A stretch of 64,000 bases of DNA from positions 62,001 to 126,000 of the forward strand of contig CAMCVK010000007.1 in assembly GCA_945881865.1 (NCBI GenBank), in the 5' to 3' direction. Source of the stretch: Fimbriimonas ginsengisoli Gsoil 348. Lineage in GTDB: Bacteria; Armatimonadota; Fimbriimonadia; Fimbriimonadales; Fimbriimonadaceae. The position numbers were made by a program, and so were the translations under genes. Of this stretch, positions 2,809 through 40,303 are shown piece after piece. Each line of letters begins with the position of its first letter. Within the stretch, counting starts at the first letter, position 1. Under the pieces are notes generated by a model. That model had not been told where the DNA came from, did no database searches, and was given only the letters and a program-made list of their open reading frames with translations.

Positions 2809-3588
2809 TTAGGCGGACGTCTTCTTTCGTCGCAGAAGCGCAAGCGCGCCCATGCCGAGCGCGACCATTGATGCCGGTTCCGGAACCGGCTGGTATGCCG
2901 CCGAAGCCGCGTCGTTGATGTTGATCAGCGTGTTGTTGTACTTTGCGATTCCACCCGTGTAGGTTCGAACGCCGGTGGTCGTGTTGATCTTGTAGATCTT
3001 GCCGTCGTCGTAGTTCACGCCGAACAGCGCGCCCATGGCGTCAAAGCCGAGCTGAAGCTGACCGGCCGTAGCGCCGAGCGTGGTTGCGCCCGCCGCGAGG
3101 TTGTTCAGGTCGAACGTTTGGGTATTCCCTGCTTCCTGCGACCAAACCTTCCCGTTCTGGTCGATCGCGATGTCGCCAAAGTCGTCCTTTACGCCGTTGA
3201 CAGTGACCGCCGCGCTGGTGATGCCACTGCTGAGGTCGACGTTTCGCAGCTTGTTGGCCGCCGAGACGTAGTAATACTTGCCCTGGTAGAACGACGCGTT
3301 GTCGTTCGAACCGCTGAAGCCGGTCGTCGCGAACAGCGACTCAGCACCGTTATTCTTGTAAAGCTTGGTTCCCTCGTTGTAGAAGAAATTGCCAGCACCG
3401 TCGTAAGCGAGGCCGTTGGTGCCGCCGCGATTATTGTTGATGCGGGTGTTGGCAACCTTGGTCGAGACACCGGTTGCGGTGTCGATCTGGAAGATGCCGC
3501 CCTGCTTAGCAAGACCGTAGATGAAGCTTGCCTGGGCCGAGCTAACACCGAAGGCGAGCAGACCAATGAGAATGATGGATTTTTTCAT
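2809..3588 (-). CDS. PEP-CTERM sorting-domain surface protein
   Basis: This 259-residue exported protein has a classic signal peptide (MKKSIILIGLLAFGVSS, cleaved near AQA). At its C-terminus is a PEP-CTERM signal: a VPEPAS motif, a hydrophobic segment and the basic tail LRRKKTSA. PEP-CTERM proteins are processed by an exosortase and released to or attached at the surface. The middle has WD/beta-propeller-like short repeats (LAYDGAGNFFYN, IAIDQNGKVW, LGFDAMGALFGVN), which suggests a beta-propeller, but the ligand is unknown. It stands alone between rpoC and a divergent pectate-lyase-like gene. The ATG at 3588 has GGAA about eight bases upstream. Confidence 0.85.
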   Translation of the reverse strand: MKKSIILIGLLAFGVSSAQASFIYGLAKQGGIFQIDTATGVSTKVANTRINNNRGGTNGLAYDGAGNFFYNEGTKLYKNNGAESLFATTGFSGSNDNASFYQGKYYYVSAANKLRNVDLSSGITSAAVTVNGVKDDFGDIAIDQNGKVWSQEAGNTQTFDLNNLAAGATTLGATAGQLQLGFDAMGALFGVNYDDGKIYKINTTTGVRTYTGGIAKYNNTLININDAASAAYQPVPEPASMVALGMGALALLRRKKTSA

Positions 3589-7134: not shown

Positions 7135-7434
7135 ATGTCGTCAGTCACCAACGGAGAAAAAAAACGGCTTCCACTTGCTGAGCTCATAAACCTCGTCGGA
7201 GACGAGATCATCAAAGCAAACGCCTATGCAAGCGGCCGGAAGGAAGACGTACTAGTATTTGTCGAGTGCGAAGTCGAAGTTTCCTTCGAAGTCGAATCAG
7301 AAGCAAACGGTAAAGTATCCGTTTTTGCGGTGGAGATCGGCGCAAGGGGCAACCAAACGACAGCTCACAGGCTTAAAGTCAAGTATGAAGCATTTTCAAA
7401 ATCTGCATTTCTTGGAGCAGCTAACGTTGAGTGA
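7135..7434 (+). CDS. Trypco2 (trypsin co-occurring domain 2)-like protein
   Basis: This 99-residue protein resembles the small Trypco2 family: a helix with PLAELINLVGDEIIKA, then alternating strands (VLVFVECEVEVSFEV, VSVFAVEIGARGN) ending in HRLKVKYE. In conflict-system studies, Trypco domains were named for occurring beside or fused to trypsin-like proteases in modular effector systems. Here the neighbour two genes on is a retropepsin-like aspartic protease instead. I chose ATG 7135 because it follows a TATAAT box at leaderless spacing. The longer open frame from 7018 has unconvincing sequence and lacks a promoter. The cassette is clearly AT-richer than the genome, which suggests transfer. 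Family membership rests on pattern recognition by eye. Confidence 0.65.
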   Translation: MSSVTNGEKKRLPLAELINLVGDEIIKANAYASGRKEDVLVFVECEVEVSFEVESEANGKVSVFAVEIGARGNQTTAHRLKVKYEAFSKSAFLGAANVE

Positions 7435-7654
7435 GGGAGTGCGAATATTTTTGGATAACACTCCTCCAGGAGAGATTCGGGCGATGGCGTTAAAGCTAAA
7501 CCCGGAGTTAAAGAGCGGCCAGGCATTCTGGATGGTTATTGGAGAGGAAAGCGTACTTGCAGCGGACGGAGACATTTTTACATTGACATCCAATGGCAAT
7601 ATTTTATTGGAGGAGGTTGCTCTAAAATTTGATTACGGAGACGTGTGGGAGTGA
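7427..7654 (+). CDS. Small protein between Trypco2 and retropepsin genes
   Basis: This protein of about 75 residues has no recognised family. It overlaps the end of the Trypco2 gene and the start of the protease gene, so all three are probably translated as one unit. The proposed TTG start at 7427 has GGAG nine bases upstream; GTG 7439 is an alternative. The sequence looks real: a helix with EIRAMALKLNPEL, then strands FWMVIGEESVLAADGDIF and LLEEVALKFDYGD. It has no signal peptide or membrane segment. It could be an adaptor or an effector of the cassette, which is inference from position only. Confidence 0.55.
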   Translation: MSEGVRIFLDNTPPGEIRAMALKLNPELKSGQAFWMVIGEESVLAADGDIFTLTSNGNILLEEVALKFDYGDVWE

Positions 7655-8043
7655 GACTGACTCTAACTCATCCAAAATTGCACGTCGGACCAAGGTCGAG
7701 ACCAGAAGCTGACATTAAGATTCTAAGCGCAGTCGGTGGGCCTCCGGTCAGCGTCGCCGGAGTGCTTGTCGATTCCGGTGCCGACTACCTAATGCTGCCT
7801 AAACATATCGGCATAGCCGCAGGCTTGCCGATGGGACGCGGAACGCGTGTCACGATCAACGGAGTTTCTGGGTCAGTCGTGGGACGTCTGCTCACGGGCT
7901 GCGTCGTCGAGGTCGAAGGGGTGACGATGACGATTGACATCCTGTTTCATCCATCGAACCGCTCCGCGCCACTTTTAGGGAGAAACGCAATTTTCGGGCT
8001 CAAGTATTTGCTACTCGGCTCGAACGCTTGGTACCGCCCGTAA
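7651..8043 (+). CDS. Retropepsin-like aspartic protease
   Basis: This 130-residue single-domain protein has a retroviral-type aspartic protease active site, VDSGAD at residues 40-45 (catalytic Asp41, with DSG in place of DTG). It ends in the matching PLLGRNAIF motif, which normally forms the hydrophobic core behind the active site. Proteases of this fold work as dimers. There is no signal peptide, so it should act in the cytoplasm. GTG 7651 overlaps the preceding TGA as GTGA and has GGAG ten bases upstream; GTG 7645 is the other possible start. As the last gene of the Trypco2 cassette it is the likely enzymatic component. Confidence 0.75.
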   Translation: MRLTLTHPKLHVGPRSRPEADIKILSAVGGPPVSVAGVLVDSGADYLMLPKHIGIAAGLPMGRGTRVTINGVSGSVVGRLLTGCVVEVEGVTMTIDILFHPSNRSAPLLGRNAIFGLKYLLLGSNAWYRP

Positions 8044-8125
8044 ACATCTGACAATTCAACAATATTTTTATATTATGCTATAAACTTACAGACTGCCATA
8101 TAAATTACGATAAAGAAGTCACCGG

Positions 8126-8341: not shown

Positions 8342-8467
8342 CTAGCCCCTAGTTAGTGACCGGCCGTTAGCAGACTGAATTCTTTTTTGCTTCGGCTCAA
8401 GGAGAGCCGCTTACGGCCAGCCGACGTTGACCTGCCGCCGCCGTTTCGGTTACGCTTGCCTTCGACC

Positions 8468-10015
8468 ATGCCAATCAAAGTGACCGTTATCGGGGCCGGG
8501 AGCGTCGGATTCACCCGCTCTATTTCGCGCGACATCCTCACCGTGCCCGAGCTCCAGGACACCGAGTTTGTTTACACCGACCTGAACGAGCATAACCTGG
8601 ACATGATCACCCAGCTGATGGCGCGGGACATCCAGGCGAGCGGGCTTCCGGCCACCGTCACCGCCACCACCGACCGGCGCCGCGCGCTGGAAGGCGCCGA
8701 CTACGTGCTGTCGTTCGTGCGGGTGGGCGGGCTCGACGCCTTCGTCCACGACGTGGACATCCCGCTGAAGTACGGCATCGACCAATGCGTGGGCGACACG
8801 ATTTGCGCCGGCGGCATCATGTATGCCCAGCGCGGCATTCCGGCCCTGCTCGACTTCTGCACCGACATCCGAGAGGTCGCCGCAAAGGACGCGCTGTTCC
8901 TCAACTATTCCAACCCGATGGCGATGCTCACCTGGGCGTGCAACAAGTACGGCGGCGTGAACACGGTCGGCCTGTGCCACGGCGTTCAGGGTGGACATTC
9001 GCAGATTGCGCGGGCCATTCAGTCGCTGGCGCGCGAAAAGGGCTGGATCTCGCCCGAGGAAACGGTCAGCAAGAAGGACGTCGATATCATCTGCGCCGGA
9101 ATCAACCACCAAACCTGGTTCGTTAAGGTGCTGTGGCGCGGCATCGACATGGTTCCGCACATGCTGGAAGCGTTCGAATCGGTGGAAGACTTCCGCAAAA
9201 CCGAGAAGGTCCGCATCGACATGCTGCGGCGGTTTGGCTACTACAGCACCGAGTCGAACGGCCACCTCAGCGAGTATGTGCCTTGGTACCGCAAGCGCAC
9301 GAGCGAGATTCTGGATTGGATCGACCTCGGCAGCTGGATCAACGGCGAGACCGGCGGCTACCTGCGGGTTTGCACCGAGGGGCGGCGCTGGTTCGACCAC
9401 GACTTTCCGAACTGGATGGCCGGCCCGCCGAACACCTTTGAGCCCGAGAAGCGCGGCGAGGAGCACGGCTCGTACATCATCGAATCGCTTGAGACCGGAC
9501 GCATTTACCGCGGCCACTTCAACCGCGTGAACAACGGCGTGATTACGAACCTGCCGGACGACGCGATCATCGAAGCACCCGGCTACGTGGACCGAAACGG
9601 CATCTCGATGCCGGTCGTGGGCGACCTACCGCTGGGCTGTGCGGCGGTCTGCAACGTGTCGATCTCGGTTCAGCGGCTGGCGGTCGAAGCGGCGGTGCAG
9701 GGCGATTTGAACCTGCTGAAGCAGGCGATGATGATGGATCCGCTGACCGGTGCGGTGTGCAACCCTCCCGAAATCTGGCAAATGACGGACGAGATGGTCG
9801 TCGCACTTGGCGAGTGGCTGCCCCAGTTCGAAATGGAGATTCCAAAGGCGAAGGCACGGCTGGAAAGCGAACCGTCGCTGGCGAAGTTTGCCGATAACAC
9901 CGGCGCGGCGCGGCTGGAAACGAAGTCGCTGGAGCAGATGGCGGAGCGGGCCGCCGAGCAGCGCAAGCTCGCCGCCGAAACGGACAAGGCAAAAGAGCGA
10001 CCGGCCGCCGTATAA
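8468..10015 (+). CDS. Glycoside hydrolase family 4 (alpha-galactosidase/6-phospho-glycosidase type)
   Basis: This 515-residue enzyme belongs to GH4, which cleaves glycosides by an NAD+- and Mn2+-dependent redox mechanism. The NAD-binding turn VIGAGSVGFTR is at the N-terminus. NYSNPMAM, the metal ligands in GLCHGVQGG (Cys) and CAGINHQTWFVK (His), and the length all fit the family. The LCHGVQ context resembles MelA-type alpha-galactosidases and alpha-glucuronidases more than phospho-glucosidases, but the exact substrate is uncertain. ATG 8468 is chosen because VTVIGAGS must lie close to the N-terminus; an upstream in-frame start at 8387 adds non-homologous sequence. It ends at a shared bidirectional hairpin. 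Confidence 0.85.
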   Translation: MPIKVTVIGAGSVGFTRSISRDILTVPELQDTEFVYTDLNEHNLDMITQLMARDIQASGLPATVTATTDRRRALEGADYVLSFVRVGGLDAFVHDVDIPLKYGIDQCVGDTICAGGIMYAQRGIPALLDFCTDIREVAAKDALFLNYSNPMAMLTWACNKYGGVNTVGLCHGVQGGHSQIARAIQSLAREKGWISPEETVSKKDVDIICAGINHQTWFVKVLWRGIDMVPHMLEAFESVEDFRKTEKVRIDMLRRFGYYSTESNGHLSEYVPWYRKRTSEILDWIDLGSWINGETGGYLRVCTEGRRWFDHDFPNWMAGPPNTFEPEKRGEEHGSYIIESLETGRIYRGHFNRVNNGVITNLPDDAIIEAPGYVDRNGISMPVVGDLPLGCAAVCNVSISVQRLAVEAAVQGDLNLLKQAMMMDPLTGAVCNPPEIWQMTDEMVVALGEWLPQFEMEIPKAKARLESEPSLAKFADNTGAARLETKSLEQMAERAAEQRKLAAETDKAKERPAAV

Positions 10016-10063: not shown

Positions 10064-11473
10064 TCAGGCGTCGGCGTACAGGTAGAACTCGTACGGATGC
10101 GGGCGCAGGTCCACCGCGTCGCACTCGTGCTCCAACTTGTACTCGATGTAGCTCTCGATGAGCTCCTTCGTGAACACGTCGCCGCGAAGCAGGAACTCGT
10201 GGTCCGTTGCGAGGGCGTGCAGCGTGGCGCGGAGGGAACCCGGAGTCTGCGCGATGCCGGCTCGCTCGATGGCGGGCAGCTCGTACAGGTCCTTGTCGAG
10301 CGGCTTCGGCGGCTCGATTCGGTTCTGAATGCCGTCGAGGCCAGCCATCAGAAGGGCGGCAAACGTCAGGTACGGGTTCGCCATCGGGTCCGGCGCGCGG
10401 AACTCGATTCGCTTCGCCTTCGGCGACTTGCTCACCATCGGGATTCGAACGCAGGCCGAACGGTTTCGGGCCGAGTACATCAGGTTGATCGGTGCTTCGT
10501 AGCCCGGAACCAACCGTCGGTAGGAGTTCGTGGTCGGGGCGGCGAAGGCAAGCAGCGCCGGAGCGTGCTTCAGGATTCCGCCGATGTACCAGCGAGCCGT
10601 CTCGGAGAGGCCGGCGTAGCCGTTCTCGTCGAAGAACGTCGGGTCGCCGTTCTTCCAGATCGACTGGTGGCAGTGCATGCCGGAGCCGTTGTCGCCGTAA
10701 AGCGGCTTGGGCATAAACGTCGCGATGTAGCCGTGCTGATACGCCGTCTGCTTGACGATGTACTTGTACTTCATCAGCTTGTCGGCCATCACGGTCAGCG
10801 AGTCGAACCGCATGTCGATCTCGCACTGACCGGCGGAGGCGACTTCGTGGTGGTGCATTTCCACGTCGATTCCGGTCTCGATCATGTTGAGAACCATCTT
10901 CGTTCGAAGGTCCTGCAGCTTGTCGTTCGGAGCGCACGGGTAGTAGCCGCCCTTCTGCTTCATGGTGAAGCCGTCGGTGTTCTCGTCGCCGCTTTCCCAG
11001 TGGGCTTCCGAGCTACCGATCTTGAAGAACGAGTGCTCCGGCTTGGTGGAGAATGCCAGCTTGTCGAACACAAAGAACTCGGCTTCTGGGCCAAAGAACG
11101 CGGTGTCGCCGATGCCGGTGGACTTCAGATATTCCTCGGCCTTCAGGGCGGTGTAGCGCGGGTCCTTGCCGTACGGCAGTCGCGTGAGCGGGTCTTCGAT
11201 GTTGCAAACGACAACCGCCGTCGGCACGTCCGTGAAGGGGTCCATGAACAGCGTGCTGGCGTCCGGAATCAGAATCATGTCCGATTCGTTGATGGTCTGG
11301 AATCCGCGGATGCTCGATCCGTCGAAGGCCAGGCCGTCTTCAAACTTATCCACGGTGAAGTGATTCGCCGGGATGCTGAAGTGCTGCCAAGTTCCCATCA
11401 GGTCGGTAAACCGAATATCGACGATTGCGGCCTCGTTTTCCGAGACGAAATTTACGGCTTCTTGTGGGGTCAT
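10064..11473 (-). CDS. glnA: Glutamine synthetase type I
   Basis: Glutamine synthetase makes glutamine from glutamate, ammonia and ATP and is the main ammonia-assimilation enzyme. The 469-residue length fits GSI. Visible motifs are the N-terminal beta-grasp DGSSIRGF, the metal-binding FGPEAEFFVFD, the HHHEVA loop, GMHCHQS, NRSACVRIP and EFRAPD. DLYELP near residue 395 corresponds to the adenylylation loop (NLYDLP in GSI-beta enzymes), so control by Tyr adenylylation is likely. I start at ATG 11473 (MTPQEAVNFVSENE); the open frame continues upstream but has unrelated sequence. The upstream stretch of about 150 bases has a small GCAAGC-TC-GCTTGC palindrome and may be an untranslated leader. Confidence 0.95.
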   Translation of the reverse strand: MTPQEAVNFVSENEAAIVDIRFTDLMGTWQHFSIPANHFTVDKFEDGLAFDGSSIRGFQTINESDMILIPDASTLFMDPFTDVPTAVVVCNIEDPLTRLPYGKDPRYTALKAEEYLKSTGIGDTAFFGPEAEFFVFDKLAFSTKPEHSFFKIGSSEAHWESGDENTDGFTMKQKGGYYPCAPNDKLQDLRTKMVLNMIETGIDVEMHHHEVASAGQCEIDMRFDSLTVMADKLMKYKYIVKQTAYQHGYIATFMPKPLYGDNGSGMHCHQSIWKNGDPTFFDENGYAGLSETARWYIGGILKHAPALLAFAAPTTNSYRRLVPGYEAPINLMYSARNRSACVRIPMVSKSPKAKRIEFRAPDPMANPYLTFAALLMAGLDGIQNRIEPPKPLDKDLYELPAIERAGIAQTPGSLRATLHALATDHEFLLRGDVFTKELIESYIEYKLEHECDAVDLRPHPYEFYLYADA

Positions 11474-36162: not shown

Positions 36163-36192
36163 GTGCCACTGGTGAGCCTCGCTCACCAGTGC
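36163..36192. repeat. REP element R1 (short)
   Basis: GTGCCACTGGTGAGC followed by CTCGCTCACCAGTGC gives a near-perfect palindrome. It is the shortest of seven related REPs in this window, lacking the 10-15 base loop of the others. Confidence 0.8.
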
Positions 36193-36677: not shown

Positions 36678-36721
36678 GCACTGGCGAGTGAGGCAAAACC
36701 ATCCTTCCTCACCAGTGGCAC
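36678..36721. repeat. REP element R2
   Basis: GCACTGGCGAGTGAGGC on the left and CCTCACCAGTGGCAC on the right form an imperfect palindrome of the same family, in the reverse orientation to R1. R1 and R2 bracket the four-helix membrane protein gene. Confidence 0.7.
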
Positions 36722-36820: not shown

Positions 36821-37918
36821 GTGTTCCGGCCTCTCCCCACCGCTGCCTTGCTCTGCTTTGCCGCGCTCTTGGTCGCTTGCAGCGTTGGCAAGGTTGCAAC
36901 CGAGTCTGACACCCCCACCGCCAGCGAGACGAACCGCTCGTTAGCAACGGGCTTCAACCTCGGCAATACGTTTGACTACGACATCCACTCGACCAGCCTC
37001 AAGGACGTCTCACCTCTGATCGATCTCTACGCCGCGGCCGGTATGCGGCACGTCCGGATTCCGGTGACCTGGGGCAATCCGATTAAAGGCAATAACCTTT
37101 GCGATGACCAGGGGAAGCTGAACCTGAAGAATTCGCGCATCACAGATTTAGCGCAAGTCGTGGACTACGCCCTCGGAAAGGGCCTTTACGTGATTGTCGA
37201 CACCCATCATGAGCATTGGTTGAAGGATGGCTACGATGGCTCGGCCAAGTACAACGAGAAGTTCACGAATCTCTGGACCGGGATCGCAACCCTCTTCAAG
37301 GACAGCTCGCCAAAGCTGATTCTCGAGATTCTGAACGAGCCGGAAAAGGCATTTGGCGACTGGACCGGCTCGGTGAAACCGTTCGAACCCCGAGCCCTTG
37401 CCCTAACGCGCCAAATCAATGAAATCGGCGTGAAGGCGGTTCGCAAAGTGAGCCCAACCCGAATCATCATGGTCGGCACAAATGGCCAGGGCAACCACTC
37501 GATGCTGGATGAGGTCTATCCCGATGCGCAGAGCTTGCCCGGCGGCGGCAAGGACAAGCACCTCATCGTCACCGTTCACACCTACGACCCTTGGCCCTTC
37601 TGCGGCCAGGATGGCAGCAACGCGAGGTGGCCCGGAGCGGATGCCATTACAGGTCCGATCAAGGCGGTTGCCGCTCACGGTCGCAAGCTCGGTGTGCCAA
37701 TCAACTATGGCGAATTCGGAGTCGGACGGACTGGGGGCAACGAGCGCGATACCGACCTGGTGCGCGGGTACTACCGCTTGGTCCGGAAGACGGCCTTGGC
37801 CGAGGGGATGTCCGTTACGCCTTGGGACGATCGCGGCTGGTTCGGCTTGACGGCTCCTGCGTCGGGCGGCAAATTCCGCTTCGTGGCCGATATCTTGCCT
37901 TCGATGATGAAGGACTAG
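36821..37918 (+). CDS. GH5 cellulase-like lipoprotein
   Basis: The 365-residue protein is a glycoside hydrolase family 5 endoglucanase-like enzyme. Motifs in order: GFNLGNTFDY, HVRIPVTWGNP, VIVDTHHEHW, the acid/base Glu in ILEILNEPE, TVHTYDPWPF, and the nucleophile Glu in INYGEFGVGR. The N-terminus has a lipobox (ALLVAC), so it is a membrane-anchored lipoprotein. It should cleave beta-1,4-glucan or a related polymer outside the cytoplasm. The start is GTG 36821. The region after it (37919-38139) holds no recognisable gene. Confidence 0.88.
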   Translation: MFRPLPTAALLCFAALLVACSVGKVATESDTPTASETNRSLATGFNLGNTFDYDIHSTSLKDVSPLIDLYAAAGMRHVRIPVTWGNPIKGNNLCDDQGKLNLKNSRITDLAQVVDYALGKGLYVIVDTHHEHWLKDGYDGSAKYNEKFTNLWTGIATLFKDSSPKLILEILNEPEKAFGDWTGSVKPFEPRALALTRQINEIGVKAVRKVSPTRIIMVGTNGQGNHSMLDEVYPDAQSLPGGGKDKHLIVTVHTYDPWPFCGQDGSNARWPGADAITGPIKAVAAHGRKLGVPINYGEFGVGRTGGNERDTDLVRGYYRLVRKTALAEGMSVTPWDDRGWFGLTAPASGGKFRFVADILPSMMKD

Positions 37919-39138: not shown

Positions 39139-39182
39139 GTGCCACTGGTGCGCGAGGATGCTCGTGCCTCGATCACCAGTGC
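39139..39182. repeat. REP element R3
   Basis: GTGCCACTGGTGCGCGAGG, a loop, then CCTCGATCACCAGTGC. Same orientation as R4, which follows after 21 bases. Confidence 0.8.
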
Positions 39183-39203: not shown

Positions 39204-39247
39204 GTGCCACTGGTGTGCGAGGGTGTTTGTGGCTCGCTCAACAGTGC
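39204..39247. repeat. REP element R4
   Basis: GTGCCACTGGTGTGCGAGG, a loop, then GGCTCGCTCAACAGTGC. It lies 30 bases upstream of the RAYT gene. Confidence 0.78.
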
Positions 39248-39277
39248 CACAGACAACCGAGATAAAATCGAATCGTC

Positions 39278-39829
39278 GTGGAGCACCGAAAGACAAGAGT
39301 AGCTTGGAACACTCCGGGGCAAGCTCATTCTCTGACCGTCTCGACTTACCAGCGTCGACCTACCTTGCTTCACTCCGGAGCTGCCGAGCTATTCCTGCAG
39401 CGACTTGATGCATCCCGGAAGCTTCTTGGGTTCGAGCTCTGGGCTTACGTTATCATGCCAGAACACGTGCACCTGGTCATTAACCCGGTCCACGAAGGGT
39501 ATTCGATCTCCGAGATTTTGAAGTCGCTCAAGGGTCCATGCGCCAAAGAGATCCTCCGCCTACACCCAGAACTGAAGGAAAGTTGCCGTCATCAAAGGAC
39601 CAATGGCAGCCAGGAGTACCGGTTTTGGCAGGTCGGTGGAGGCTTTGATCGCAATCTCGCGACTACCCAAGCTACTTGGACCGCGATCCAGTACGTTCAC
39701 CAAAACCCGGTGAAGCGGGGCCTTTGCGAATCACCGGCCGACTGGCCGTGGTCAAGCTTCCTGGCTTATTCCGAGTCGGAAGCGCATCCTCCGATTCCGG
39801 TCGACTTGTGCCGTATTGGGACCGACTAG
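39278..39829 (+). CDS. REP-associated tyrosine transposase (RAYT)
   Basis: The 183-residue protein is a Y1/HUH transposase of the TnpA_REP type: the metal-binding HUH motif is EHVHLVINP, and the catalytic Tyr lies in IQYVHQNPVKRGL. RAYTs cut and move REP sequences, and here three REPs of one family sit around the gene (two upstream, one downstream in inverted orientation). It starts at GTG 39278, nine bases after TAAAAT. The coding sequence ends at 39829, 33 bases before REP R5. The length and motifs look complete, so the copy may be active. Confidence 0.9.
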   Translation: MEHRKTRVAWNTPGQAHSLTVSTYQRRPTLLHSGAAELFLQRLDASRKLLGFELWAYVIMPEHVHLVINPVHEGYSISEILKSLKGPCAKEILRLHPELKESCRHQRTNGSQEYRFWQVGGGFDRNLATTQATWTAIQYVHQNPVKRGLCESPADWPWSSFLAYSESEAHPPIPVDLCRIGTD

Positions 39830-39861
39830 AACTCACTGTCCTCAGTTGAGTGGACCGGTTA

Positions 39862-39905
39862 GCACTGGTGAGCGAGGCAAAGACCTCCTCGCTCACCAGT
39901 GGCAC
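39862..39905. repeat. REP element R5
   Basis: GCACTGGTGAGCGAGGC, a loop, then CCTCGCTCACCAGTGGCAC, in inverted orientation to R4. It closes the RAYT unit on its right. Confidence 0.85.
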
Positions 39906-40051: not shown

Positions 40052-40095
40052 GTGCCACTGGTGTGCGAGGATGTTCTTGCCTCGCTCACCAGTGC
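40052..40095. repeat. REP element R6
   Basis: GTGCCACTGGTGTGCGAGG, loop ATGTTCTTG, then CCTCGCTCACCAGTGC. R7 is its exact reverse complement. Confidence 0.88.
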
Positions 40096-40259
40096 CTCGA
40101 AGTCCAGAAGAATCGGATCTTCGTGGACCACCAATTGAGTGGCCGAGGTCAAGCTCTGTAGAGCATTCCAAGTCGGACGGCTATCCGCCGACTACGATCG
40201 GCGCCTGTCGAATTGGGATTGACTGGAACTGACCTTCGTCGACTGGGGCGAGTTTCGGA
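40096..40259 (+). pseudogene. Internally deleted copy of the RAYT unit
   Basis: The sequence between R6 and R7 matches both ends of the RAYT unit but lacks its middle. GAATCGGATCTTCGTGGACCACC resembles the RAYT start region around 39269-39288. TGGCCGAGGTCAAGCT, TTCCAAGTCGGA, and GAATTGGGATTGACTGGAAC resemble the 3' end of the transposase (39745-39840: TGGCCGTGGTCAAGCT, TTCCGAGTCGGA, TATTGGGACCGACTAGAAC). About 450 bases of the coding region are missing. The product could not be functional, so this is a non-autonomous derivative. Confidence 0.7.
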
Positions 40260-40303
40260 GCACTGGTGAGCGAGGCAAGAACATCCTCGCACACCAGTGG
40301 CAC
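40260..40303. repeat. REP element R7
   Basis: Exact reverse complement of R6 over 44 bases. R6, the deleted RAYT and R7 together form a BIME-like unit of 252 bases. Confidence 0.88.

Follow-up and report, generated by a model that had tools for sequence, protein, structure and literature searches.

A putative remnant of a RAYT gene unit between mirror-image REPs in a Fimbriimonas genome, and deleted RAYT units amplified in a congener

RAYTs are usually described as single-copy genes that are unable to move themselves. In a stretch of 64,000 nucleotides from the Fimbriimonas ginsengisoli Gsoil 348 genome (contig CAMCVK010000007.1; hereafter the window), a unit of 252 nt at 40052-40303 consists of a 164-nt spacer between two exactly inverted REPs, and adjoins an intact RAYT unit at a distance of 146 bp. 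What this unit is, how its arms came to be identical and whether it can move are questions that bear on the origin of REPINs and on whether RAYTs move units bigger than a REP doublet.

The intact unit occupies 39204-39905. Its gene (39278-39829, plus strand) encodes a Y1 HUH transposase of 183 aa from a GTG start, with the motifs HVH and YVHQNP; it scored 96.9 bits against NF047646 (REP_Tyr_transpos, cut-off 80) and matched Pfam Y1_Tnp (1.9e-8), and these profile matches make its predicted assignment to the RAYT family clear. The gene is flanked by an inverted pair of REPs, 84% alike: R4 (39204-39247, plus strand), which by REP profile and fold has a weakened stem and three private bases, and R5 (39862-39905, minus strand), located by REP profile. 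A gene between inverted repeats is also the design of REPtrons and TIRtrons (PMC3733652, PMC6006769), and TIR-flanked RAYTs and TIR families of moderate abundance are already known (PMC3733652). In contrast to these, the 252-nt unit has no functional gene, and the REPs of the window, each a head followed by a 40-nt hairpin, have the head GTGC instead of GT(A/G)G.

Further upstream in the window lie R1 (36163-36192, plus strand; REP profile, nhmmer E 2.1e-5), a REP of 30 nt with a shortened centre, R2 (36678-36721, minus strand; nhmmer E 5.7e-14) and R3 (39139-39182, plus strand; nhmmer E 9.7e-15). A glycosyl hydrolase family 5 (cellulase) gene is located at 36821-37918, between R2 and the RAYT region. 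REPs of the window type are not abundant genome-wide, as the cognate REPs of a RAYT would be expected to be; there are about a dozen, in two clusters only, one in the window and one on contig C4. Confinement of REPs to the vicinity of rayt genes has a precedent (PMC2817692). The cluster on C4 (L066, ~3250-3360, 7430-7540, 8005-8115 and 9630-9732) is made up of REPIN-like doublets of ~106 nt, with a GTGGCACGGGTGA...TCACCCGTG hairpin and an inverted GTGCCACTGGTCAGC hairpin, and no RAYT or RAYT remnant was detected near it.

The original prediction held that the spacer matches both ends of the RAYT with about 450 bases removed. Alignment bore this out and set the exact figure at 448 bp: with 39288-39735 taken out of the R4-R5 unit, the two units are collinear from end to end (254 versus 252 nt), and 116 of the 158 aligned bases of the spacer (73%) are identical (z = 13, 2000 shuffles). 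The 5′ part of the spacer (40111-40132, plus strand; alignment and blastn) is a residue of the RAYT 5′ end (39266-39287), including the former GTG start, with 19 of 22 bases identical, a score reached by 0 of 1000 shuffles. The 3′ part (40137-40233, plus strand; blastn and alignment) is a residue of the RAYT 3′ end (39740-39836), 71% identical over 97 nt, and gave E = 1.4e-8 with blastn on its own. The deletion junction falls by alignment at 40132/40133, and in the intact unit both ends of the missing segment carry CACC(G), at 39284-39288 and 39732-39736. The deleted length cannot be divided by three, and the reading frame is lost. Judged from its sequence, the 252-nt unit is a shrunken RAYT gene unit that has kept both ends and its mirror-image REPs; like a MITE, it combines the termini of an autonomous element with an internal deletion and lacks a functional transposase.

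Changes in the spacer are distributed 8/8/11 over the three codon positions. The stop codon TAG is now TGG, and W158 and D176, which are present in 39 and 36 of 45 RAYTs, respectively, are both lost. The tail RIG.D and S165/S167 are common to the spacer and the adjacent RAYT, and few other RAYTs have them. Because this unusual tail is shared and the stop codon and conserved residues are gone, the spacer must stem from a RAYT closely related to the adjacent one, and it degenerated once function was lost.

The reading that we favour, with a probability of about 0.58, is that the unit is the relic of a REP-bounded RAYT duplication which lost its core and whose arms were homogenised by inverted-repeat template switching or by RAYT action. 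A second RAYT unit (REP-rayt-REP), related to the adjacent intact one, would have been copied with its boundaries at or very near the REPs; the core would then have been lost through the 448-bp deletion between CACC microhomologies; and the dead spacer would have drifted to its present identity, the REP arms being kept or made identical afterwards. A likely route for the last step would be inverted-repeat conversion, in which replication switches templates from one 44-bp arm to the other, and the neighbouring RAYT might have helped by acting in trans on the REPs. Support for a relic comes from internally deleted, REP-flanked RAYT units that recur in a congener, and from other partial RAYT units in relatives, both described below.

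The outer flanks of the 252-nt unit and of the parent unit showed no significant similarity outside the REPs, and a tandem duplication including the outer flanks was rejected on this ground. The spacer, at 73%, was easily detected and outer similarity was not, which speaks for a copied segment that ended at the REPs or close to them. Outward from R5 and R7, nevertheless, a weak likeness extends for up to ~18 nt (12/18 by eye), which leaves doubt about the REP as the copy boundary and counts against the favoured reading.

A search of the 3.2-Mb genome for further copies of the 252-nt unit found none, and a DNA search of 60 relatives found no related unit; the non-self matches among these relatives were short RAYT matches in genomes of the same order, none of them in the genus. 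Recent transposition, which had been offered as one explanation of the perfect arms, is therefore not supported: only one copy exists, it lies close to the intact unit, and 27% divergence and the loss of the stop codon and of conserved residues mark its spacer as decayed.

Dispersed copies were found in G003, a congeneric genome with several RAYTs. A 421-bp query was taken from an apparent RAYT fragment in G003, and its matches were aligned to an intact RAYT unit of the same genome (G003:C15:7595-8366). In fifteen copies the same 349 bp are missing (unit positions 244-592), and three others share the absence of 420 bp (positions 208-627). The family thus counts at least 18 dispersed copies, on about 12 contigs (L231-L245: C8, C10, C15, C18, C22, C25, C30, C44, C45, C48, C51, C53, C55). 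The copies are 78-96% alike and retain the inverted REPs as well as the 5′ part of the gene and its 3′ end, stop region included, with outer inverted repeats of 19 nt (CGACAAGTCACTGTGTGAG / CGGCGAGCCACTGCGTGGG, 14/19); a few are truncated on one side or cut at a contig end. Their flanks contain other repeats at varying offsets, with no homology across the ends of the copies. Since dispersed copies have their deletion endpoints in common, the sequences point to one deletion followed by amplification. The copies thus form a MITE-like family of RAYT origin, and the dispersed copies expected of a MITE occur in this family but not in the window's genome. That RAYT-derived non-autonomous elements exist, as the original prediction proposed, is strongly supported by this multi-copy family, which carries more interest than the window unit itself. 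The 421-bp query had no match in the window's genome; without DNA homology between the family and the 252-nt unit, internal deletion of RAYT units therefore recurs in the genus. In another congener, G010, a search for such a mini family gave REPs only, with no coding ends.

The G003 family bears on the possibility that the 252-nt unit is a MITE-like element with present or recent activity, which the RAYT would excise and paste as a single-stranded hairpin of 252 nt, with only units of matching arms being able to move. The unit shares the design of this family, whose 15 + 3 shared-deletion copies keep RAYT ends and inverted REPs between non-homologous flanks, and it adjoins an intact RAYT. Nevertheless, a single copy with an old and decayed spacer, 146 bp from the RAYT, is not what such activity would be expected to leave, and the extra outer inverted repeats of the G003 element are not seen at the 252-nt unit; we therefore regard an active element as unlikely. 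The unit may in principle be a substrate of the neighbouring RAYT and its mobility in trans is possible, yet in this genome it would be a single-copy relic.

The left arm, R6 (40052-40095, plus strand), forms a hairpin with a T-T mismatch (-16.0 kcal/mol) and is the exact reverse complement of the right arm, R7 (40260-40303, minus strand). The match over 44 bases given in the original prediction, with neighbouring REPs that differ from each other, was confirmed in its coordinates and in all 44 of 44 nt, or 45 with the outer G/C pair, and a longer arm of 51 nt is 96% complementary. When folded as single-stranded DNA, the unit has a perfect terminal stem of 44 bp (-92.7 kcal/mol, z -15.5). R6/R7 differ from R2, R3, R4 and R5 at 7, 4, 5 and 4 of 44 positions, respectively, and R2-R5 differ among themselves at 7-10. 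R6/R7 have no private base, R2-R5 have 2-5 each, and a single position separates R6/R7 from the 3-of-4 majority of R2-R5. The lack of any private base in these REPs indicates that, once the gene was dead, its flanking arms underwent homogenisation or replacement or were kept conserved.

Exact inverted REPs also surround related RAYTs (26/26, 30/30, 37/37, 29/29 and 28/28 nt at L090, L095, L096, L132 and L154, respectively). As exact or near-exact inverted REPs are common there, the perfection of R6/R7 is normal for a RAYT unit, and perfect arms alone are not distinctive of the 252-nt unit. The unusual point is that the perfection of the arms persists around a dead spacer. Arm correction, the other explanation given in the original prediction, is plausible and compatible with arms that are unusually alike. 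It is established in other systems that template switching homogenises the arms of inverted repeats (PMC8604942, PMC7202029). The arms of the 252-nt unit are, however, 164 nt apart, and the template-switched repeats of PMC8604942 had shorter spacers, which counts against the relic with homogenised arms.

Identity could also have arisen without conversion, if R6 and R7 were slow-changing REPs in which the ancestral sequence was retained by chance or by selection on the hairpin, for example for transcription termination. The missing private bases and the single difference from the majority agree with this, and closeness to the cluster consensus weakens the favoured reading to the extent that the identity may partly be retained ancestry. 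On the other hand, if all REPs had aged alike, two independent unmutated copies would be expected with a probability of ~0.0015 (simple Poisson, the other REPs having 3.25 private changes on average), which rises to ~0.04 if conversion makes R6 and R7 effectively one sequence. Furthermore, the 9-nt loop is identical in R6 and R7 although it is unpaired in the single-REP fold, and so is the T-T mismatch; neither is required by hairpin selection. Retention without conversion therefore seems distinctly improbable. That assembly made or equalised the arms is very improbable: the genome is a draft of 26 contigs and inverted repeats may tangle short-read graphs, but reads are long compared with arms of 44 nt, the spacer sequence occurs only once, a contig of 173 kb encloses the unit, and a collinear deletion with decayed homology cannot come from assembly.

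The 252-nt unit, most probably a relic as set out above, is a non-autonomous, REPIN/MITE-like derivative. The proposed source of REPINs is REPs that lay on either side of an IS200-like element, RAYTs being described as single-copy and not self-mobile (Bertels and Rainey 2011, PMC3116915). Like a REPIN, the unit has two inverted REPs around a spacer, forms one hairpin through its 44-bp terminal stem and occurs in a genome with a RAYT; unlike a REPIN, it has a longer spacer that is recognisable as RAYT from both gene ends, has arms that are 44-nt imperfect palindromes, and is single-copy instead of a repeated unit dispersed in the genome. Incorporation of 3′ rayt ends is known from four BIMEs (Nunvar 2010, PMC2817692), and there too the RAYT 3′ end with its downstream REP makes up the inter-REP segment; those BIMEs hold the 3′ end only, whereas the 252-nt unit and the G003 family keep both ends, joined by an internal deletion. 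The haloarchaeal PATEs (Haloquadratum) are core-deleted, terminal-only IS605 elements (PMC3119063), comparable as non-coding derivatives of Y1-transposase elements that lost the core via repeats and of which some are dispersed; PATEs, however, derive from archaeal IS605 and have no terminal inverted repeats, whereas the 252-nt unit derives from a RAYT and has exact inverted REPs. The original statement that MITE-like RAYT derivatives with transposase ends are rarely described is fair, although the BIMEs, the PATEs and the proposed REPIN origin are precedents; in the part of the literature covered, we found no account of a RAYT derivative that had been amplified with both ends of the gene retained.

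RAYT units that have lost their middle but keep both ends, of which the window's genome has one and the congener an amplified set with common deletion endpoints, are predicted intermediates of REPIN origin and a concrete substrate on which trans-mobilisation can be tested. These shrunken units suggest a missing link between RAYT genes and the tiny repeats that they spread. A more tentative idea, which we hold to be doubtful, is that the RAYTs of the genus still mobilise REP-bounded units in trans and that both-ended deleted units amplify as MITEs, the window unit being a freshly formed or dying member and thus a directly observed RAYT-to-REPIN intermediate.

RAYTs at 28-47% amino acid identity were found at 17 loci, mostly in Phycisphaerae MAGs, and RAYTs were present in 40/291 genomes of the window's phylum, the best at 49%. 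Around related RAYTs, 20 regions of 10-19 kb were inspected, and none held a deletion with both ends retained. Partial units were a 3′ RAYT fragment with a REP in L092 and an emptied unit with one hybrid REP hairpin in L147/L171 (G046 contig C6; 380-600 of L147). In L147, the flanks from both sides of the RAYT recur 1 kb upstream and are joined at the hybrid hairpin, as if a RAYT had been deleted between its REPs. Tandem RAYTs were found in L167 and L170. Two RAYT units of 712 bp in L167 (G130; 8345-9056 and 10142-10853) are identical, one of them ending exactly at the contig end; they either are a genuine duplicate or result from an overlap in the assembly. In L091, two REP-like stretches at 3330-3400 lie within the RAYT coding region and match the hairpins that flank the gene.
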